A stretch of 45,350 nucleotides of DNA from Oscillospiraceae bacterium (GTDB taxonomy: Bacteria; Bacillota; Clostridia; Oscillospirales; Oscillospiraceae), in contig JAGPMA010000013.1 in the NCBI GenBank assembly GCA_018053145.1, positions 1 to 45,350 on the forward strand. Reading direction: 5' to 3'. The notes below the pieces were generated by a model. It was not told the origin of the DNA. It did no database searches and saw nothing but the letters and a program-made list of their open reading frames with translations. Position 1 is the first letter of the stretch. The number at the start of each line of letters is the position of its first letter. This document shows, one piece after another, positions 12,881 through 33,642 of this stretch. A program made the position numbers and the translations under genes.

Positions 12881-13279
12881 TTACCACACAAACGCCAAGA
12901 CTTCACCGCCGACATTTGCCTTGCGTGCAGCCTTGTCAGTCATGATGCCTTTGGACGTGGAAATGATAGCTATACCCAGTCCTTTGAGGACATAGGGCAG
13001 CTCGTCAGCACCGGCATAAACGCGCAGACCGGGCTTTGATACGCGGCGAAGGCCCTGGATGGCCTTTTCCTTGCCGGGAAGATATTTAAGTGTGATGCGG
13101 ATTATTCCCTGGCCGCCGTCTTCAATAAGCTGGAAGCTCTTGATATAGCCTTCGTCCAAGAGAATGGTGGTAATTGCCTTTTTCATGTTAGAAGCGGGAA
13201 CATCGACGGTGTCGTGCTTAGCGCTTCCTGCGTTGCGGATACGGGTTAATAAATCCGCGATAGGATCGGTAATTTGCAT
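12881..13279 (-). CDS. rpsH: 30S ribosomal protein S8
   Basis: S8 is a primary 16S rRNA binder, and in E. coli it is the repressor of the spc operon. The 132-aa product starts [18 protein letters not shown] and ends with the conserved [27 protein letters not shown] place the start at 13279, where GGAGGAAATCAAG immediately precedes the ATG; the frame is open 45 codons further upstream into a non-coding-like spacer. Unusually, 368 nt separate it from rpsN. Confidence 0.98.
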
Positions 13280-13647
13280 ACTTGATTTCCTCCTTGTTAG
13301 AGTTACAGTCGATAATTCGTACTGTTGAGGCGACGAGGTTCCGAGCCAATTCTTGATTGCCCCCGGCCTTTCGTCATCCAAATGTTTATTTGCAGCGGTA
13401 AAACCGCAATACAAAACGAATGTTCTCCTTGCGGAGATTTTTCTTTGCAGGGCGTTTATTTGACTTGCGTTTTAAAACGCCCTGTATAAGTTCGTCTAGC
13501 GAGTGCAGGAATTTTCGTCAGACACTCTCGGTCTAACTCCTATTTCTGACTACACGCGCATCGCCGGAAAATTTTCTTCAGGCCAAATCGAGGCGGCGAA
13601 GCTGTATGAGCATACTGCGAGCCGACGAGATGACGCATGATGGAAAT
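13280..13647 (-). other. Long structured spacer between rpsN and rpsH
   Basis: No credible gene is present. Reading the spacer on the plus strand, I see GCGGT/ACCGC (13394-13406), TCTCC/GGAGA (about 13424-13437), and a 10-bp stem CAGGGCGTTT (13448-13457) with AAACGCCCTG (13475-13484). There is also a partial direct copy of the repeat flank (GCAGGAATTTTCGTCAG near 13505). The structured repeat itself occupies 13569-13649. In the operon mRNA the order is repeat, then the three hairpins, then the rpsH ribosome-binding site. Confidence 0.6.
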
Positions 13648-13649
13648 TT
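13569..13649. repeat. Structured hairpin repeat, copy 1
   Basis: Plus-strand reading: an outer 12-position stem (13569-13580 with 13638-13649, 11 paired) and a 3-bp ATC/GAT stem, then an internal loop GAGG/ACGA. Next come CGGC/GCCG, a small internal loop, GC/GC, a T-T mismatch, GTAT/ATAC and a 4-nt loop. The GAGG/ACGA loop can form tandem G-A pairs. The element overlaps the rpsN stop codon. Its core closely matches copy 2 at 20390-20495, whereas the outer stems differ in sequence but keep pairing. Which strand (or DNA itself) is functional is not known. Confidence 0.7.
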
Positions 13650-13833
13650 ACCAAGAAGCCTTTCTGACGCCCGGGATCTGGCCCTTATGTGCCAGCTCGC
13701 GGAAGCAAATACGGCAAACGCCGTAATCACGCAGATAAGCGTGGGGACGACCGCAGATTTTGCAGCGGTTGTACTCTCTTGAGGAGAATTTCGCCGGAGC
13801 AGCCTGCTTAATTTTCATTGATGTCTTAGCCAT
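13648..13833 (-). CDS. rpsN: 30S ribosomal protein S14, type Z
   Basis: A 61-aa zinc-binding S14 of the 30S head. The ligands CKIC and CRIC (about residues 24-27 and 39-42) flank [12 protein letters not shown], and the end [11 protein letters not shown] is conserved. It follows rplE by 11 nt. Its stop codon coincides with the edge of the structured repeat in the following spacer. Confidence 0.98.
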
Positions 13834-13844
13834 GCTTTATCCTC

Positions 13845-14387
13845 CTAAGCCTTTGCAAACGGAGCGCCCATAAGTGCAAGCAGCTCTTTTGCTTCTTCGT
13901 CGGTAGCCGCAGTGGTGCATATAGCAATGTTCATACCACGCAGTTTTTCGATCTTGTCATAGTCGATTTCAGGGAAGATAATCTGTTCCTTCAAACCGAG
14001 GCTGTAGTTTCCGCGTCCGTCAAAAGCATCCGCGTTGATTCCGTGGAAGTCACGGACACGGGGAAGCGCTACGTTGAACAGTCTGTCGAGGAATTCCCAC
14101 ATTCTGTCCTGTCTGAGCGTAACCTTGACGCCGACATTCTGTCCTGCGCGGAGTTTGAAGTTTGCAACGCTCTTGCGAGCAACTGTTGCAACAGCCTTCT
14201 GTCCGGCAATCGAAGATATGTCTTTTATAACAGCATCCAAAGCCTTCTGGTTGTCTTTGCAGTCGCCTGCGCCGACGCTGATTACTATTTTTTCTATCTT
14301 GGGAATTTGCATCGTGCTCTTGTAGGAGTACTTCTTCATAAGAGCGGGAGCGACTTCCTCAAGATATTTTGTTTTAAGTCTTGGCAT
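13845..14387 (-). CDS. rplE: 50S ribosomal protein L5
   Basis: Binds 5S rRNA and contacts P-site tRNA and S13. The 180-aa product shows [34 protein letters not shown], the [13 protein letters not shown] segment, and the end [13 protein letters not shown]. Normal length and position between rplX and rpsN. Confidence 0.98.
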
Positions 14388-14405
14388 TAAAAAGTCTCTC
14401 CTTTC

Positions 14406-14714
14406 TTATATGATTTCGCCGCACTTCTTGCAGACGCGTTCTTTTGTTCCGTCATTAAGGAACTTATGTGCTTCACGGGTAGGCTTGCCGCACTTGGGGC
14501 ATACGCGCATAACCTTTGAAGCATATATGGGGGTTTCTTTTTTGATGATACCGCCCTCTGTGCCGGGTTTTGTGGGCTTCATATGACGCTTAGCGACATT
14601 TACACCCTCAACGATGACTTTGCCGTTTTTGGGATCAGCAGAAACTACTCTGCCTTCTTTTCCCTTATCCTTGCCGGACAGAACAATGACTTTATCGTCT
14701 TTTTTAATGTTCAT
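14406..14714 (-). CDS. rplX: 50S ribosomal protein L24
   Basis: An assembly-initiating 23S rRNA binder. The 102-aa product has the KOW motif at the N-terminus ([18 protein letters not shown]), [17 protein letters not shown], and two CxxC pairs (CPKC and CKKC) near the C-terminus, suggesting a zinc-binding form. Confidence 0.97.
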
Positions 14715-14725
14715 TTCTTGCCCTC

Positions 14726-15094
14726 CTATATAACTTCGGGAGCCAACGACAGGATCTTCATGAAGTCCTTGTCACGAAGCTCACGGGCAACCGGTCCAAA
14801 AATACGGGTACCTTTGGGGTTCTTGTCATCTTTGATGAGTACTGCGGCATTTTCGTCAAAGCGTACATAGGTGCCGTCTGCACGACGAACGCCCTTTGCG
14901 CTGCGAACGATAACTGCCTTGACAACATCGCCCTTTTTAACGGTGCTGCCCGGTGCGGTCTTGCGAACGGACGCAACTATGATATCTCCGATATTTCCAT
15001 ATTTGCGCTTTGATCCGCCAAGAACGCGAATGCATTTGATCTCTTTGGCGCCGGTATTGTCGGCCACCTTGAGAAATGTTTCCTGTTGTATCAT
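14726..15094 (-). CDS. rplN: 50S ribosomal protein L14
   Basis: L14 forms intersubunit bridges. The 122-aa protein is highly conserved: [39 protein letters not shown], and the end [16 protein letters not shown]. It lies between rpsQ and rplX. Confidence 0.98.
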
Positions 15095-15106
15095 TTCGCG
15101 GCCTCC

Positions 15107-15370
15107 TTACTTTGCCTTTTCAATTATTTCTACTAGACGCCATCTCTTATCCTTGGACAGGGGACGGGTCTCCATAACTCTGACTCTGTCGCCGATTCCG
15201 CACTCATTCTTTTCATCGTGAGCCTTCAGGCGATAAGTTTGCTTGATAATCTTCTTGTACAGAGGATGCGCAACGCGGTCCTCAACAATAACGACAATGG
15301 TCTTGTCCATCTTGTCGGACACTACCTTGCCGACGCGGGTTTTGCGGGAAGATGTTCTTTCTTCACTCAT
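15107..15370 (-). CDS. rpsQ: 30S ribosomal protein S17
   Basis: A primary 16S rRNA binder with an OB fold. The 87-aa protein reads [20 protein letters not shown], then [20 protein letters not shown], and ends [17 protein letters not shown] lies six codons upstream but sits inside the GAGGAGG ribosome-binding site, so the ATG at 15370 is preferred. Confidence 0.97.
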
Positions 15371-15384
15371 TCTCGTTTTCCTCC

Positions 15385-15579
15385 TCACTGCTCGAGTTGT
15401 TTCTGGCGAATAACTGTCTTGACTCGGGCAATGTCACGGCGTACGGCAGAAATTTTTATCGGGTTGTCAAGATGGTTAGTGGCGTGCTGCATACGGAGTG
15501 TAAATAAATCCTTCTTCAGCTGCAAAAGCTTGTTTTCAAGCTCTGCGGCAGACATTTCGCGTATCTCGTTTGCCTTCAT
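15385..15579 (-). CDS. rpmC: 50S ribosomal protein L29
   Basis: A 64-aa two-helix protein at the tunnel exit, where nascent-chain factors dock: [20 protein letters not shown], then [20 protein letters not shown] and a C-terminal [17 protein letters not shown]. The frame is open far upstream, but the ATG at 15579 matches the family start and is one base away from the rplP stop codon. Confidence 0.97.
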
Positions 15580-15580
15580 C

Positions 15581-16018
15581 TTATTCACCACCTGTCTCGG
15601 AATCGGCAACTGCATCGCGAACAACAAACTTTGTCTTGCAGGGAAGCTTGTGGCTTGCAAGACGCATTGCTTCGCGGGCTGTTTCCTCGGGTACTCCGGC
15701 AATTTCAAACATGACACGGCCGGGCTTTACAACTGCTACCCAGTATTCGGGAGAACCTTTACCGGAACCCATGCGGGTTTCAGCAGGCTTCTCTGTTACG
15801 GGCTTATCAGGGAAAATTTTGATCCAAACTTTACCGCCGCGCTTGGTATAACGGGTCATAGCAATACGCGCTGCCTCAATCTGGTTTGAGGTAATCCAGC
15901 TGGGCTCAGTAGCCATAAGACCGTATTCGCCGTAAGCAACAAAGTTGCCTCTGGTGGCCTTGCCCTTCATACGCCCGCGGTGCACTCTGCGGTATTTTAC
16001 TCTCTTAGGCAGAAGCAT
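15581..16018 (-). CDS. rplP: 50S ribosomal protein L16
   Basis: L16 organises the A-site side of the peptidyl-transferase region. The 145-aa product shows [40 protein letters not shown], and [17 protein letters not shown]. The ATG overlaps the rpsC stop (TAATG). Confidence 0.98.
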
Positions 16019-16980
16019 TACGCATTGCCTCCTTCCTTAGGGGTGCCGGCTGCGGGGGTTGCGGGGGCTGCCGGTGCTGCCGGTGTTGCCGGGCCGCGGT
16101 TGTAGCCGCCAGTGCTGGGGCCACGATTGTAACCGCCGGTGCTGGGACCACGATTGTAGCCGCCCTGTCCGCCCTGAGTCGACTGACCGCCACGATTGTA
16201 GCCGCCCTGTCCGCCGCTGTATCCGCCCTGGCCGCCTTGACCACCACGGTAATTGTTGTTTCTGTTATCGCCGAAGGATTTTTTGCGCTCGCCGCGGTTA
16301 TGATCATCCTTGCGGGTCATATCCATTACGCGGGGAGTGCTGCGCAGTGTCTGGCTAAGGATTTCACCCTTGTAAATCCAAACCTTAACGCCGCAGCGGC
16401 CATAGGTTGTTGCGGCCTCTGCAAAACCATAGTCGATGTCTGCACGAAGAGTCTGAAGGGGAATTGTACCCTCGTGATAGCACTCGCTGCGAGCGATTTC
16501 AGCACCGCCCAAACGGCCGGAGCACATAACCTTGATGCCCTTAACGCCCATTTTCATGGCGCGACCCATGGAGTTTTTCATCGCACGGCGATGGCTGATA
16601 CGCTTTTCGAGCTGAGCTGCAATGCTCTCTGCGACAAGCTGTGCATCAGTATCGGGAGTGCGGACCTCAACGATTGAAAGTGCGACGGGCTTGCCAATCA
16701 TCTTTTCAACGGAGAGTCTAAGACGCTCGATTTCGGTGCCGCCTTTTCCGATTACCACGCCGGGGCGTGAGCAGTGGATAAAGATGCGAACCTTGGAGCT
16801 GTCGCGCTCGATTTCAATCTTAGGGACACCTGCGGAATACAGGGTCTTCTTCAGATATTCACGAATTTTGTAGTCTTCAACGACGAGATCGCCGACCTTA
16901 TCGTTTCTAGCGTACCATCTGGAATCCCAGTCCATGATAACGCCGACACGGAATCCATGAGGATTAACTTTCTGTCCCAT
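16018..16980 (-). CDS. rpsC: 30S ribosomal protein S3 with Gly/Tyr/Arg-rich C-terminal tail
   Basis: S3 guards the mRNA entry channel and contributes to the ribosome's helicase activity. Residues 1-223 are an ordinary S3: [20 protein letters not shown], the KH type-2 domain with [13 protein letters not shown] (about 76-88), and the S3 C-terminal domain ([25 protein letters not shown]). Residues 224-320 are an unusual low-complexity extension: a basic [12 protein letters not shown] segment, then repeated GGYNRG/GGQGG units and an Ala/Pro-rich end. Most S3 proteins stop near 210-240 residues. The reading frame is continuous, with downstream TAATG coupling to rplP intact, so the tail is real coding sequence rather than an error. 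Confidence 0.97.
16081..16257 (-). repeat. Tandem repeats encoding the S3 tail
   Basis: Imperfect short tandem repeats encode GGQGG and GGYNRGPST units (residues about 242-300 of S3). On the plus strand the recurring core is CCGCCCTGTCCGCC and CACGATTGTAGCCGCC. The three GGYNRGP(S/A)T copies near residues 273-299 are nearly identical in DNA, which indicates recent slippage or duplication. Confidence 0.85.
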
Positions 16981-16994
16981 ACTCTGCCTCCTCC

Positions 16995-17330
16995 CTAATT
17001 TTTCTCAGCCACTACGATGGTGATGTGGCTGGTTCTCTTGTTGATTCTGTACATACGACCCTGAGCTCTGGGCATGCCTCTCTTGAGGATGGGGCCCGGA
17101 TTAGCGAAGGTCTCGCTGACATAGAGCTTGTCGGTGTCCATGTGAAAATTGTTTTCTGCGTTTGCCACGGCACTCTTGAGAACCTTAATCATAAGCTCGC
17201 TTGCTGCCTTGGGTGTGTGCTGCATGAGAGCTTCTGCGGTTTTAACGTCCTTGCCGCGAATAAGGTCGCAAACTATCGAAACCTTACGGGGAGATATGCG
17301 GGCAAACTTGTGTTCTGCTCTTGCTTCCAT
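16995..17330 (-). CDS. rplV: 50S ribosomal protein L22
   Basis: L22's beta hairpin lines the exit tunnel. The 111-aa protein has [20 protein letters not shown], then [15 protein letters not shown] and the hairpin region [20 protein letters not shown], ending [11 protein letters not shown]. Full length, between rpsS and rpsC. Confidence 0.98.
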
Positions 17331-17341
17331 TTTTCTCCTCC

Positions 17342-17614
17342 TTATCTTCCGGTCTTGGAGCCGGCATGACCGCGGAAAGTGCGGGTAGGCGCGAACTCGC
17401 CCAGCTTGTGTCCTACCATATCCTCGGTTACATATACAGGGACGTGGCGGCGACCATCATGAACGGCAATTGTGTGACCAACGAAAGTCGGGAAAATTGT
17501 GGACGCGCGGCTCCAAGTTTTAAGGACCTTCTTCTCGCCGGCCTTATTCATAGCATCGACCCTTTTAAGCAGCTCCGGAGCGGCATAGGGGCCTTTTTTA
17601 ATACTTCTGCTCAT
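17342..17614 (-). CDS. rpsS: 30S ribosomal protein S19
   Basis: S19 is in the 30S head, partnering S13. The 90-aa protein reads [20 protein letters not shown], then [20 protein letters not shown] and [18 protein letters not shown]. Conserved from end to end. Confidence 0.98.
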
Positions 17615-17628
17615 TAATTATTCCCTCC

Positions 17629-18465
17629 TTACTTCTGATTGCGACGCTTGACAATGAACTTATTACTCTTGTTCTTCGTCTTGCGCGTCTTGTATCCGAG
17701 GGTAGGCTTACCCCAAGGAGTAACAGGTCCTGAACGACCAATGGGGGCCTTGCCTTCACCGCCGCCGTGGGGGTGATCACAGGGGTTCATGACGCTGCCG
17801 CGAACGGTCGGACGCCAGCCCATGTGACGTTTACGTCCGGCTTTACCGATGTGGATGTTTGCGTGATCGATGTTGCCAACCTGCCCGATTGTGGCGATGC
17901 AGTTGATGCGAATCTTACGATATTCGCCGGAGGGCAGACGAACTGTTGCAGTTTCGCCTTCCTTAGCCATGAGCTGAGCAGCAACACCCGCCGAGCGGAC
18001 GAGCTGAGCGCCCTTGCCGGGATAAAGCTCGATGTTGTGAATAACCGTACCGACAGGAATGTTGGCAATCGGAAGAGCGTTGCCGGGCTTGATGTCGGCG
18101 GATTTTGACGATACAACAGAGTCGCCGGCTTTAAGTCCAACGGGAGCAAGGATGTAACGGCGTTCGCCGTCCTCATACTCCAATAGCGCAATATGCGCGC
18201 TGCGGTTAGGGTCATATTCAAGACGAAGCACCTTGCCGGGCATTTCAAGCTTGTTGCGCTTGAAGTCGATAACACGGTATTTCTTCTTGTTGCCGCCGCC
18301 CTGATGACGAACGGTGATGCGACCGTTATTGTTACGACCGGCATTGCTCTTTAAAACCTCTACCAGGGATTTCTCGGGTGTTGCACGCTTGTCAACTCCA
18401 TCGAATCCCGAGACCGTCATATGTCTTCTGGACGGTGTAGTAGGTCTATAAGTTTTAATGGACAT
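17629..18465 (-). CDS. rplB: 50S ribosomal protein L2
   Basis: L2 is required for subunit association and peptidyl-transferase assembly. The 278-aa protein has [20 protein letters not shown], the OB-like and SH3-like RNA-binding domains, and the signature [11 protein letters not shown] near residue 228; the conserved His of the DHPHGGGEG segment is present. Confidence 0.98.
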
Positions 18466-18480
18466 ATCTCATTTCCTCCC

Positions 18481-18780
18481 TTACACCATACCCTCGAAGA
18501 TTTCGATGTTCTTGGACTTCGCGCTGAGCTTAACAACAGCCTTTTTCCAGTCGGAAGTGTAACCCGGGCGTTTTGCGCCTACGCGCTTTTCCTTACCGGG
18601 CACGATGGTTGTAGTAACTCTGATGACCTTAACGTCGAAAATTTCTTCGATAGCTTTTTTGATCTCGATTTTGTTAGCATCCTTCGCCACTTCAAAAACG
18701 TACTTTTTGATGTCGAGGTCCTCCATGGACTGCTCTGTGATTATGGGACGCTTGATGATGTCGTATGCTGTTCTAATCAT
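18481..18780 (-). CDS. rplW: 50S ribosomal protein L23
   Basis: L23 lies at the tunnel exit and docks trigger factor and SRP. The 99-aa product shows [40 protein letters not shown], and [20 protein letters not shown]. It overlaps rplD by 4 nt (ATGA). Confidence 0.97.
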
Positions 18781-19400
18781 GCGAACACCTCCTCGATTTT
18801 CTCAAGCGCAGCCTTATCGACAACAAGCTTCCCTGCATTCAAAATGTCATACGGGGAAATTATAGTTGCGATTGTTGTCTTCACGCCGGGGATGTTTCTT
18901 GCGCTCTTAATAACAGTCTCGTTGACTTCTTTTGTTATAACAAGAGCCTTACCGGTAACATTGACTTTTTCAAGGAAGCCGACAAAAGTCTTAGTCTTGA
19001 TTTCGGCAACCTTAAGGTCGTCGATTATGATGATTTCGCCTTCCGCCGCTTTGGATGAAAGTGCGCTCTTCAGTGCTAATCTCTTGACTTTTTTGTTAAG
19101 AGTGTAGCTGTAATCGCGGGGCTTGGGAGCAAACGCGACACCGCCGTGTCTCCAAACAGGTGAGCCGGCATGTCCGGCACGGGCACGACCTGTGCCCTTC
19201 TGACGCCAAGGTTTTTTAGTTGTGCAGTCGACCTCGCCCTTGGTCAGAGCGCTCTGTGTACCCTGACGGCAATTTGCGAGATGATTTTTAACTGAGTCGT
19301 GCAGAACGGACTCGTTGGGCTCAATTCCGAAGATGGATTCGGAGAGTTCGATCTCACCGACCTTTTCGCCGGCCATATTGTAAATTGGTGCTTTAGGCAT
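18777..19400 (-). CDS. rplD: 50S ribosomal protein L4
   Basis: L4 lines the tunnel and, in E. coli, represses the S10 operon. The 207-aa product has [20 protein letters not shown], the extended loop [20 protein letters not shown] (about 70-90), and the Rossmann-like C-terminal half. Whether it autoregulates here through the long rpsJ leader is not shown by the sequence. Confidence 0.98.
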
Positions 19401-19418
19401 TACATTCTCTCCTTTCCA

Positions 19419-20144
19419 TTATCTTGTTCTTGCGGAGGCCTTCTGCGGGTTGACTCTTGCGGAAGCCTTCTGCGGGTTGAGGCTGATGCCAGCTGCGGCA
19501 CCCTTGGCCTTAACGTTCTTCACGGTGTTCTTGAGATACACAATGCCACCCTTGGGTCCGGGGATTGCGCCGCGAACAACGATCATGTTCAATTCGGGGT
19601 CAACCTTGACAACGTCAAGGTTCTGTACGGTTACCTGCTCTGCGCCCATGTGACCTGCGCCGATTTTTCCCGGAAAAATTCTGGAAGGATCGGTGCCAGA
19701 ACCCATAGAACCTGCATGACGGTGAACAGGTCCGCCGCCGTGGGTCATAGGAGTTCTGTGTGCGCCCCAGCGCTTGATAACGCCGGCGTAACCTTTGCCC
19801 TTGGAGATTCCGGTGACGTCGACCTTGTCGCCCTCTGCAAAAACGCCTGCGGTGATTACATCGCCGACATTGAGAGCTTCACAGTCTTCGAGGCGGAACT
19901 CTTTGAGATACTTCTTGAGCGAAACACCGGCTTTTTGAAGGTGTCCCTTTTCAGGCTTGGAGAGCTTACGCTCAGCCTGATCCTGATAGCCGAGCTGAAC
20001 GGAAGTGTAGCCTTCCTTATCAGCATTTTTCTTCTGGACAACGACGCAGGGTCCCGCTTCAATGACGGTTACCGGAACGACTTTGCCCGCTTCATCGAAG
20101 ATCTGCGTCATGCCGACCTTTTTGCCGATGATAGCTTTTTTCAT
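19419..20144 (-). CDS. rplC: 50S ribosomal protein L3
   Basis: L3 is an early assembly protein reaching the peptidyl-transferase centre. The 241-aa product has [52 protein letters not shown] and the family end [14 protein letters not shown]-terminal extension of about 25 residues follows, ending in a duplicated NPQKASAR octapeptide. AAGGAGG precedes the start. It follows rpsJ after an unusually long 349-nt spacer. Confidence 0.98.
19428..19481 (-). repeat. 27-bp tandem duplication at the rplC 3' end
   Basis: 19428-19454 and 19455-19481 match at 25 of 27 positions and encode the two copies of the NPQKASAR peptide. The duplication is in frame and lies outside the conserved L3 fold. Confidence 0.9.
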
Positions 20145-20493
20145 GTTATTTCCTCCTTATAGGTTATTGGTCAACTCGCTTCGTCGTTAGGCCATACTCA
20201 CGCTCCGTTTCCGCTAAAGCGAAAACTGCGGCATCGTGTGGCCACCTCCTCTCAAATCAAGACCCGCTTCGCTGGGCTCTTAATTTGTTAAGAAACGAAC
20301 CAGAGGCTGCTGACTTGACCCTGTCCGTTCACGCAAGTAACAGACAATCGGGTTTTTTTGATAGATTTTCAAGTGCTTGAGTCACATCCGATTACGCAGG
20401 ATTTTTCGTTTAGGTCGATGGCGAGGCGGCACCGCTGTATGGTTTTATACTGCAAGCCGACGAGCCGAAGAGATAATCGAAAAAGGCCAGTAA
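20145..20493 (-). other. Long structured spacer between rpsJ and rplC
   Basis: No credible gene is present. In the operon mRNA the order is: the structured repeat, a stretch with an A/U-rich segment, an AGCCC/GGGTC-type hairpin (near 20260-20282), then a nested structure closed by GGCCA/TGGCC (about 20190-20243) with an inner CCGC/GCGG pairing, then the rplC ribosome-binding site. Such spacers are normally only tens of nucleotides. Confidence 0.6.
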
Positions 20494-20495
20494 TC
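20390..20495. repeat. Structured hairpin repeat, copy 2
   Basis: Plus-strand reading: outer stems GATTAC/GTAATC (20390-20395 with 20490-20495) and TTTTTCG/CGAAAAA (20402-20408 with 20478-20484). The core then runs GGC/GCC, internal loop GAGG/ACGA, CGGC/GCCG, ACC/AA loop, GC/GC, T-T mismatch, GTAT/ATAC and a GGTTTT loop. The core internal loops are the same as in copy 1, while the flanking 3-bp stem is GGC/GCC here and ATC/GAT there, a compensatory change. The edge overlaps the rpsJ stop codon. Confidence 0.7.
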
Positions 20496-20811
20496 AAAGT
20501 TTCATTTCGATTTCAACACCTGCCGGAAGTTCAAGTGACATAAGTGCCTCAACAGTTTTCTGTGTGGGGTTCATAATGTCGATCAGGCGCATGTGAGTGC
20601 GGCGCTCGAATTGCTCACGGCTGTCCTTATATTTATGAACAGCGCGGAGAATGGTGATGATTTCTCTCTTCGTGGGAAGAGGGATAGGGCCGGAAACCTT
20701 TGCTTCCGTACGCTTTGCCGTTTCAACAATCTTCTCAGCTGCCTTGTCGATAAGCTGATGATCGTAAGCCTTAAGTCTGATGCGAATCATCTTTTTGTTT
20801 GATACTGCCAT
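20494..20811 (-). CDS. rpsJ: 30S ribosomal protein S10
   Basis: S10 is in the 30S head and is also the NusE antitermination factor. The 105-aa product reads [40 protein letters not shown], and ends [22 protein letters not shown] lies 7 nt before the start. It is the first gene of the superoperon, behind a leader of about 350 nt. Confidence 0.98.
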
Positions 20812-20952: not shown

Positions 20953-21166
20953 TTCCCGTACAAGCGATATACGCGTGCAACAGAAATGTTCTCAACCGCC
21001 CGATTATTTGCCGAATTGTCTCGGCAACGGACATACTCCACGAAAGTTACCGGCTCGTCCTCATAAACAAATCTGCGATCTGCTCATAACTCTAATGCCG
21101 CAATCTCCCGCTTCATCGCATTTTCGCGCAATTAGGGCGCAAGTTCCCCAATAGGCGCTCCGTTAG

Positions 21167-32540: not shown

Positions 32541-32614
32541 GCGGGCGTAGTTCAATGGTAGAACACCAGCCTTCCAAGCTGGATACGTGGGTTCGATTCC
32601 CATCGCCCGCTCCA
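32541..32614 (+). tRNA. tRNA-Gly (TCC)
   Basis: Cloverleaf with 7-bp acceptor GCGGGCG/CGCCCGC, anticodon loop CTTCCAA (anticodon TCC), GGTTCGATTCC T arm and encoded CCA. First gene of the five-tRNA cluster. Confidence 0.97.
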
Positions 32615-32828
32615 ACGTCCAAGCAAACTGCGTATTGTTAGCTTCCGTGCAAGCACGAAAGCTCATTCACTCCGTTATTTCTCCTCTTCGCGTCAAAAGC
32701 CAAGCTTTCGCCGCGAGGATAACGAGAGACTAATAATGCGGTTTAGTTTGGCGAAAAGCGGCTGCCAACCATGCTCAGGAGCCTCGCTTGCGAGGATTCG
32801 TGCAAAGGCAGGCAGTGAGCGACGATAT
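32615..32828 (+). other. Structured spacer between tRNA-Gly and tRNA-Arg
   Basis: This 214-nt spacer is far longer than the others in the cluster. It contains a branched imperfect palindrome: an outer stem of 32624-32641 with 32730-32750, a hairpin at 32641-32662 (GCTTCCGTGC/GCACGAAAGC), and a second stem joining about 32671-32692 (CTCCGTTAT to TTCGCG) with CGCGAGGATAACGAG (32712-32726). A further hairpin, CCTCGC/GCGAGG (about 32782-32795), is enclosed by CTGCC/GGCAG. No open reading frame with a ribosome-binding site is visible. Confidence 0.5.
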
Positions 32829-32905
32829 GCGCCAGTAGCTCAGGTGGATAGAGCAACTGCCTTCTAAGCAGTAGGTCAGGGGTTCGAGTCCCTTCTGGCG
32901 TACCA
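32829..32905 (+). tRNA. tRNA-Arg (TCT)
   Basis: Acceptor GCGCCAG with CTGGCGT (terminal G-T wobble), anticodon loop CTTCTAA (anticodon TCT), T arm GGTTCGAGTCC, discriminator A and encoded CCA. Confidence 0.97.
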
Positions 32906-32954
32906 GTTTTTCTTCACAGCAGGGTGCCGGTAATGGTTTTTGGTGCAATTATAT

Positions 32955-33032
32955 GGTGGGTATAGCTCAGTTGGTTAGAGCACCGGATTGTGGTTCCGGG
33001 GGTCGAGGGTTCGAATCCCTTTACCCACCCCA
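32955..33032 (+). tRNA. tRNA-His (GTG)
   Basis: The extra 5' G (G-1) opposite C73, typical of tRNA-His, is encoded. Acceptor GTGGGTA/TACCCAC, anticodon loop TTGTGGT (anticodon GTG), T arm GGTTCGAATCC and encoded CCA. Confidence 0.97.
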
Positions 33033-33067
33033 TAAAATCATTTCCATAGTTTTGCTTGAATCTGCGA

Positions 33068-33141
33068 TGGGATATAGTGTAATGGTAACACACTAGACTT
33101 TGACTCTGGTATTGTAGGTTCGAGCCCTGCTATCCCAGCCA
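33068..33141 (+). tRNA. tRNA-Gln (TTG)
   Basis: Acceptor TGGGATA/TATCCCA, anticodon loop CTTTGAC (anticodon TTG), T arm GGTTCGAGCCC, discriminator G and encoded CCA. Confidence 0.97.
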
Positions 33142-33158
33142 TTTTTATTTTTGATTAT

Positions 33159-33234
33159 GATTCAGTAGCTCAGTCGGCAGAGCATTTGCCTTTTAAGCAA
33201 AGGGTCCGGGGTTCGAATCCCCGCTGAGTCACCA
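33159..33234 (+). tRNA. tRNA-Lys (TTT)
   Basis: Acceptor GATTCAG/CTGAGTC with one T-G pair, anticodon loop CTTTTAA (anticodon TTT), T arm GGTTCGAATCC and encoded CCA. Last tRNA of the cluster. Confidence 0.97.
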
Positions 33235-33274: not shown

Positions 33275-33375
33275 AAGTTTATTACGCTTTTTAAGCTATC
33301 ACAAAGCATAAATAAAATATTTCCTTGCTAATAATCACTCGTTATATTACAATGTTTCTTAACAAATTAATAATA

Positions 33376-33545
33376 GGTGCATGGGTGCAGCTCTATACTG
33401 GAGCCGCCTAAGAGGGAAGCGGGGTGAAAATCCCCCACGAGCCCGTCGCTGTGCAGGAGGAGTCCTCTAACATAACCACTGAGCTTATGCTTGGGAAGGA
33501 GTGAGCGGATGATGATTCCAAGTCAGAAGACCTGCCCAAGCATCC
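33376..33545 (+). promoter_or_regulatory. Cobalamin (B12) riboswitch
   Basis: The conserved pieces appear in order: GGTGC at the start, GCCGCCTAAGAGGGAA, GGGGTGAAAATCCCC, ACGAGCCCGTCGCTGT, and the B12 box GTCAGAAGACCTGCC (33522-33536). The flanks GGTGCATGGG and CCCAAGCATCC can pair as P1. The expression platform (33546-33642) contains ATCCGTA (33542-33548), complementary to TACGGAT (33611-33617) followed by T residues, and then the ribosome-binding site of the next gene. Binding of a cobalamin is expected to switch off the two downstream genes. Confidence 0.93.
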
Positions 33546-33642
33546 GTATAAAAAGCCGCGAGCCCCGGCACTTGTACAGTTCTCTTTCTGGGATAACTGC
33601 GCCTTCTTTGTACGGATTTTGCCGAACAGAGGAGGATTTTTC

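Follow-up and report, generated by a model that had tools for sequence, protein, structure and literature searches.

Two hairpins behind ribosomal protein genes of an Oscillospiraceae bacterium as probable residents of a dispersed repeat family with a Correia-like core

What are the two related hairpins that stand directly behind ribosomal protein stop codons in the superoperon of an Oscillospiraceae bacterium, and what keeps them there? The window analyzed here is the whole of a 45,350-nucleotide stretch from contig JAGPMA010000013.1 (assembly GCA_018053145.1), and its ribosomal superoperon is transcribed from the - strand. The first hairpin (13569..13649, + strand, antisense to the operon) lies in the gap between the genes for ribosomal proteins S14 and S8, directly after the S14 stop codon. 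The second (20390..20495, + strand) lies between those for S10 and L3. An earlier note, made from the letters of this DNA alone, had described both hairpins and had placed their starts at the stop codons of the preceding ribosomal genes. Its anatomy is right in every element checked, and the stop codons are those of S14 and S10. The hairpins are probably resident members of a dispersed family of miniature repeats that has the core of the Correia elements of Neisseria, and they would be kept at these two sites most likely as mRNA processing sites.

Both hairpins are built around a common core of 41-43 nt, CGAGGCGGC-n3-GCTGTAT-n4/6-ATACTGC-n-AGCCGACGAG, which occupies 13589..13629 in the first and 20422..20464 in the second, again on the + strand. 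The GAGG/ACGA loop, the CGGC/GCCG helix, the T-T mismatch and the GTAT/ATAC helix are identical in the two copies. A three-base-pair stem differs (ATC/GAT versus GGC/GCC), and the outer arms are unlike in sequence, with pairing kept in both. At the base of the second hairpin, on the operon strand, TGATTAC of the S10 stop region pairs with GTAATC, so that the stop codon itself is base-paired. Measured against dinucleotide shuffles, the folding z-scores of the first and second hairpins are -2.93 and -3.05 on the + strand and -1.48 and -3.05 on the - strand. A strict version of the core pattern has two forward matches in the 2.25 Mb genome and none when the pattern is read backwards.

The same structure recurs behind the same genes in related genomes. 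The strict pattern is found in 1 of 58 relatives, at the same S14 position, and in one public record (PGZZ01000007.1, a Firmicutes metagenome-assembled genome). A covariance model built from three copies, taken from the window's genome and one relative (R1), was searched in 39 genomes, namely the window's own and 38 relatives. All 12 places that it matches at E<=1e-3 lie behind S14 or S10; beside 13 weaker places (E 0.0055 to 0.54), tblastn finds neither gene. Further copies at ribosomal sites are present in the S10 gap of genome G029 and in the S14 gaps of G007, G010 and G021, and the S10-gap copy of G005 is without the inner loop. The arms change in step: they read TTTTCTTCA/TGATGGAAA in the window and TTGCCTTCA/TGAAGCGAT in a relative. 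At the S10-L3 gap of G007 (locus L039) the hairpin is absent, and by eye both flanks seem to be kept in short form (TAATTGCTGCATGTAATT), as in an empty or excised site. The S14-S8 gap of genome G015 (L021) is 907 nt long and has an apparent reading frame that starts shortly after S14.

A catalog of copies within the bacterial family shows how widespread this placement is. Its 162 aligned hits were reduced to 151 when overlapping hits per locus were removed and to 145 when five loci fetched twice were removed; identical cores from different contigs (L190/L191, L135/L136 and L153/L154) are counted as separate copies. The S14-S8 junction accounts for 56 copies (52 genomes, 20 genera) and the S10-L3 junction for 15 (15 genomes, 8 genera). 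Where S14 was called as the neighbor, the 74-nt match falls within 20 nt of the stop codon in 47 of 52 cases, and where S10 was called it does so in 14 of 15. S14 copies from different genomes of the same genus are on average 74% identical to one another (79 pairs) and 53-63% identical to dispersed copies (91 pairs). These identities suggest vertical inheritance of S14 copies within genera and count in favor of residence at this site. By eye, an outer arm reading TTGGTGAA, or close to it, pairs with the S14 stop and Trp codons in several genera (L171, L185, L173, L150, L139 and others), where the hairpin extends into the S14 coding sequence.

Covariation was assessed in two alignments, of 14 ribosomal copies (A3) and of 107 copies (A8). 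The larger one was drawn from 100 hand-picked loci at E<=5e-6. It excludes three reverse-strand rows of A7, has also lost the weak rows L161, L179 and L229, and includes three rows from outside the bacterial family. In A3, both sides change in 17 of 23 pairs, and 92% of cells pair compared to 30-47% when the structure is slid. In A8, both sides change in 22 of 23 pairs, with 538 such cells where shuffling leads to an expectation of 162, and 87.7% of cells are paired compared to 27-41% for slid structures. Both alignments were fitted to a model of the same structure, which biases these figures in its favor, and the controls remove this bias incompletely. Three unpaired purines are nearly invariant, occurring in 103, 102 and 106 of the 107 copies at columns 16, 33 and 61. 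Ribosomal and dispersed copies pair equally well (1003 of 1132 versus 1057 of 1214 cells). The earlier note had taken conserved loops and covarying stems as the mark of a structure under constraint, and this larger sample bears it out. Its judgment that the resemblance is not due to chance stands as well, because relatives have the structure behind these same genes and its stems covary.

The hairpins are not confined to ribosomal operons. At E<=0.01, a covariance model built from the 14 ribosomal copies of the bacterial family alone (R2) matches 95 of 400 genomes of that family; taken at face value, the rough E-values would predict about 4 such genomes by chance. With a model built from the 107 copies of A8 (R3), 17 chosen genomes were searched at E<=0.05, and at least 150 copies are present in G370, 45 in G212, 24 in G330 and 5 in the window's own genome; G003 and G008 have none. 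The covariance search for further copies that the earlier note had proposed thus yields them both at home and in many relatives. The third strong copy in the window's genome is on contig C76 (6519-6592, E 5.9e-12). In an even draw from the phylum, R3 matches 19 of 398 genomes at E<=0.001. This dispersal led us to discard the idea of a one-off feature. Carriage by phages was also discarded. A phage collection searched with a 151-nt copy gives no match, and the viral_contigs collection has no match to the strict window-type pattern and 12 to a looser core pattern.

The genes around dispersed copies were also recorded. For 51 of these copies a gene was called to either side, and in 46 cases the two genes point the same way (gene calls were mechanical and tandem units were counted singly); the strand of the hairpin model is antisense to the genes in 34 of these and sense in 12. 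Of 30 neighboring proteins scanned, 25 have an NCBIfam match at E<=1e-20, and these are mixed and mostly housekeeping. These copies bear on a further explanation, in which the hairpins are cis-acting autoregulatory leaders of the ribosomal operon that are bound by a ribosomal protein and have nothing to do with repeats. The recurrent position after S14 and S10 across genera is what such leaders would display. However, the same structure is found beside gyrB, groEL, glmS, secA, asnS and upp, reaches the copy number given above for G370, and has a core in common with Correia elements. A leader of this kind is largely refuted by the dispersed copies, and we consider it very improbable.

Many dispersed copies resemble the interior of small mobile elements. 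When genomes with multiple copies are read side by side, the hairpin runs outward into inverted-repeat ends that differ between groups. The group of G330 has ends GGTAYTGTCA and direct repeats of 8-9 bp, and that of G370 has ends GGAAACGCTGATT and 4-bp direct repeats TTAA, CTAA and TCAA, the direct repeats being read by eye in both cases. A second G370 group has ends AGAGCCTGTTTCATATCTC. The C76 copy in the window's genome has a 26-nt inverted repeat, 85% complementary, that starts CTAGTTCTCTGTTGC; its CTAG edge is ambiguous as a duplication because it is palindromic. A truncated element on contig C68 of the same genome (L283) has the same TTCTCTGTTGCAGC ends and about half of the core. The end motif occurs in this genome only at these two places, and no autonomous partner was found there by it. 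Judging by their inverted ends, direct repeats, length and near-identical copies in G370 and G330, the dispersed copies are probably non-autonomous elements similar to miniature inverted-repeat transposable elements (MITEs). The window copies, read by eye, have no recognizable ends with direct repeats.

The core leads beyond the bacterial family and its phylum. A core pattern derived from the relatives matches 12 of 2.9 million viral_contigs records, and 6 of these have Correia-type ends TATAGTGGATTAA, close variants or part of them. This agrees with the features of Correia elements (CREE) reported in one study, namely core ends CCGGTACGG and TCAGGACAA and the variants AACAAAAA or AAATTTAAA (PMC2649163). 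A BLAST search of a plasmid collection with a 49-nt core gives 88 places, in 6 records of Eleftheria terrae (E 4e-5), Cupriavidus metallidurans (E 0.02) and N. gonorrhoeae (E 0.2 and 3). R2 recognizes 14 of 15 outside loci at E<=0.01, with L232, L233 and L234 at E 1.5e-9 to 6e-8 (4.3e-8 for the N. gonorrhoeae stretch L233 and 1.5e-9 for Cupriavidus L234). Compared to three outside copies, the S10 copies of G335 and G023 reach 72-77% identity, which none of 300 shuffles attains. The range is 68-76% for the S10 copy in G149 and for L137, an S14 copy, and here 0 to 3 of 300 shuffles do as well. The central hairpin of the repeat family is probably homologous to the Correia core of Neisseria, and the window copies are linked to it through their relatives.

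The earlier note knew of no named family for the hairpins and had suggested a comparison with Rfam. As far as Rfam is concerned this holds: release 15 covariance models give no match at either window hairpin up to E 10, and no Rfam family matches the hairpin positions in 16 loci. It does not hold more widely, since the core of the family is the Correia core and is dispersed in a transposon-like manner in relatives.

Position, copies, covariation, a family core in common with Correia elements, and element-like ends at other loci are the direct observations, and they suggest the following course of events. Copies of a presumably mobile repeat may have inserted early in the bacterial family and settled after the S14 and S10 stop codons of the superoperon, where selection would have retained them as folded hairpins. 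Elsewhere in relatives, and on contig C76 of the window's genome, the same core is embedded in short elements that have inverted repeats at their ends and probable target duplications. Within the transcript of the superoperon, each hairpin could form a double-stranded site between two genes that is cut or bound by an enzyme of the RNase III type. Such processing might determine where the S10 and S14 mRNA segments end and how long they last. Correia hairpins in mRNA are described in two reports as binding RNase III and as able to be cut by it (PMC2649163, PMC10969869). By analogy, an intercistronic mRNA processing or stabilizing site of the RNase III type is the most likely role for the ribosomal copies.

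Several findings weigh against this account. Some concern the Correia link. Neither the R2 E-values nor the identities of the outside loci are independent evidence, because the loci were chosen by core motif. The window's two copies are 59-63% identical to the three outside copies, where shuffle means are 57-60% and 22 to 196 of 300 shuffles are as high. Direct pairwise similarity of the window copies to Correia elements was therefore set aside as a basis for the link, which rests instead on a chain: the window copies share their position and their covariance family with other copies whose likeness to Correia elements is clear. The mRNA role faces an objection of its own. The better-folding strand is mostly the antisense one, and not the mRNA strand that RNase III would encounter, although the mRNA strand folds too.

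Other adverse findings concern residence. Occupancy in genus g1 is patchy, with copies in the S14 gap of 7 of 11 genomes and the S10 gap of 5 of 10. In the catalog, 71 copies lie at the S14-S8 or S10-L3 junctions and 74 lie outside both, and the ribosomal share of 71/145 is inflated because the models were seeded at those junctions. None of 28 loci from the phylum draw is at S14 or S10, in a small sample to which the bacterial family contributes 2 loci. Between genera, S14 copies are 67% identical to one another versus 64-66% to dispersed copies; when an S14 copy and a dispersed copy come from a single genome, their identity is 70-71%. These identities leave room for re-insertion or homogenization.

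Patchy presence in genus g1, and S14 copies that are barely closer between genera than they are to dispersed copies, also suit the main rival, a neutral resident renewed by recombination. Under this explanation hairpin repeats are tolerated at the S14 and S10 junctions, template switching in quasi-palindromes produces what looks like covariation, and no selection acts on the ribosomal copies. Tandem arrays of 2-3 units with 98-111 nt spacing occur in seven loci, as slippage would produce them, and some arms repeat the flank in inverted form, such as the TTGGTGAA arm paired with the S14 stop and Trp codons in L171 and L185. However, template switching would erase mismatches, yet the unpaired purines of the core are nearly invariant. 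Ribosomal copies from 20 genera also pair as well as dispersed copies do. Neutral residence is unlikely on balance.

The + strand folds better for both window hairpins taken alone. When 125-nt segments of the window and its relatives were folded, the antisense strand came out ahead in 13 of 15. The two exceptions are the window's own S14 segment, in which flanking bases tip the balance to the opposite strand, and an S10 segment (G006). Base-pair counts in a strand-symmetric alignment of the 145 copies carry a detection bias, as the models were trained in the orientation used for counting. Read in model orientation, this alignment has 295 G-U versus 119 A-C combinations inside helices, an excess with the same direction in every context class, and 27 versus 8 in copies lying sense to genes. 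It has 982 A-G versus 266 C-T mismatches. In A8, the commonest pair at columns 3/89 is U-G (59 of 105). Over all pairs there is no bias (715 G-U versus 703 A-C). When columns 3, 4, 19, 20 and 45 (conserved wobble and poorly paired positions) are left out, G-U and A-C number 31 and 19 in ribosomal copies and 42 and 15 in dispersed copies. Much of the excess stems from a handful of wobble pairs that are conserved.

These asymmetries could indicate that the hairpin is part of a small antisense RNA transcribed from the + strand. Predicted non-coding RNAs in or near Neisseria Correia elements, reported in one paper, would be in keeping with this idea (PMC5039591). A simple consensus scan finds no sigma-70-type promoter-like site in either gap on either strand, and an antisense promoter was rejected as a candidate there. 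The reduced counts in ribosomal copies argue in the same direction, and a bias that appears whichever way a copy faces its neighboring genes could equally well belong to the lineage of the element. We judge an antisense RNA to be improbable, and view the strand bias as a property of that lineage that is weak evidence for the ribosomal copies today. The earlier note had pointed out that the GAGG/ACGA loop can form tandem sheared G-A pairs when read on the + strand. A preference for that strand agrees with most of the 125-nt segments and is weak where ribosomal copies are counted.

A strand bias that is independent of the orientation of neighboring genes, combined with a location directly after stop codons, might also point to single-stranded DNA. 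In that form the hairpin would be the substrate that the element needs in order to move or be copied, comparable to HUH-transposase (REP/RAYT) or attC-like systems. A single Y1 transposase domain that looks intact (PF01797, E 1.2e-44) lies on contig C26 of the window's genome (4379-4732, - strand), distant from the window, and G370, which has the most copies, has three partial matches. Y1_Tnp is present in 8 of 26 genomes, comprising 6 of 16 element carriers and 2 of 10 others. It was not found in G330, G255, G410, G292, G212 or G122, which have 4 to 45 copies each and include several incomplete assemblies. The probable target duplications at dispersed copies fit DDE transposases, and integron core sites are not seen by eye in the window copies. 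A single-stranded substrate is improbable. An identity with REP/RAYT systems was rejected because 10 of 16 carriers lack Y1_Tnp, despite the matches in the window's genome and G370.

The reading of the window hairpins as resident Correia-core repeats can be extended, although the extension is tentative and we would not assume it. One hairpin core may be a module common to miniature elements with different ends across Bacillota and Betaproteobacteria, with selection acting on its strand-specific fold. Different ends would probably mean different transposases. One bacterial family might then have domesticated the module at two superoperon junctions, where it processes or insulates the transcript.

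The surroundings of the hairpins hold additional conserved features. The S14 gene (61 amino acids; 13648..13833, stop codon 13648-13650) lies upstream of the first hairpin in the operon and the S8 gene (12881..13279) downstream. The S10 gene (20494..20811, stop codon 20494-20496) and the L3 gene (19419..20144) flank the second hairpin in the same order. All four are on the - strand and were identified with NCBIfam. Both gaps are long, at 371 nt for S14-S8 and 352 nt for S10-L3 when counted from the upstream stop codon. An intrinsic terminator reading of the hairpins was rejected; a scan located terminator-like sites elsewhere in the gaps and one within the second hairpin on the + strand.

Upstream of L3 (20145-20345, - strand) is a motif GTCAAGTTGGC...GCCAACCAATAACC..AGGAGG that looks like a conserved L3 leader. 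Its regular expression matches 25 of 30 S10-L3 gaps in the window's genome and relatives, and 4 of the 5 missed gaps, including the window's own, still have ACCAATAACC. Upstream of S8 (13290-13385, - strand) is a conserved element CGAAAGGCCGG..CGGAACCTCG..AACAG..CTGTAAC, which is found by regular expression in 10 of 30 S14-S8 gaps, 9 of them in genus g1. Two more small inverted repeats, GCGGTAAAACCGC and GGGCGTTT..AAAACGCCC, occur in this gap at 13390-13490, and genome G001 has both. The only ribosomal leader that Rfam calls in the window is S10-Clostridia (21016-21124, - strand). Farther away are a cluster of five tRNAs (32541-33234) and a cobalamin riboswitch called by Rfam (33366-33553, + strand).

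Small mobile hairpins are already a known kind of element. Among open-licence papers in PubMed Central, no report was found of the Correia core outside Neisseria, of this core with several kinds of ends, or of such a core fixed in a ribosomal operon. Correia elements have been treated as a Neisseria specialty. If a homologous core exists in a family of Bacillota (Firmicutes), in other members of that phylum and in Burkholderiales replicons, the question would shift from the nature of a Neisseria repeat to why unrelated miniature elements keep one hairpin. Residence after S14 and S10 offers comparable sites, in 20 and 8 genera, at which the role of a hairpin in a highly expressed operon could be tested.

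REP/REPIN elements are intergenic DNA hairpins with conserved mismatches, and the copies described here are likewise hairpins with conserved mismatches between genes. Unlike REP/REPIN, their unit is much longer and has inverted-repeat ends, and the Y1 transposase is missing from most carrier genomes. By description only, they are also like ERIC/IRU and other enterobacterial repeat units, which two papers present as intergenic imperfect palindromes of about 100-170 bp (PMC2229807, PMC2759123). A search of 20,395 E. coli records with the 49-nt core gives no match up to E 10. A Thiomargarita MITE has been likened to Correia elements in general structure, with divergent internal sequence (PMC4853749).

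Correia elements (CREE/NEMIS) are the closest known system. One account states that the Correia repeat had, as of 2009, been found only in Neisseria and describes the elements as present in transcripts (PMC2649163). The window copies differ from them in their outer arms and in their sites after S14 and S10. Neither window copy is bordered by the 26-bp Correia repeat ends (TATAGTGGATTAA...), nor are the relatives' copies that were read, and other relatives have other ends. No TA target duplication is readable at the window copies; other family copies have direct repeats of 4 bp or 8-9 bp by eye. What copies of relatives have in common with Correia elements is a directional core within an imperfect palindrome, many dispersed copies and a central hairpin CGCAGACAGTAC-n-GTACGGCAAGGCG flanked by CAGGACAAGGCG..CAACGCCGTA.

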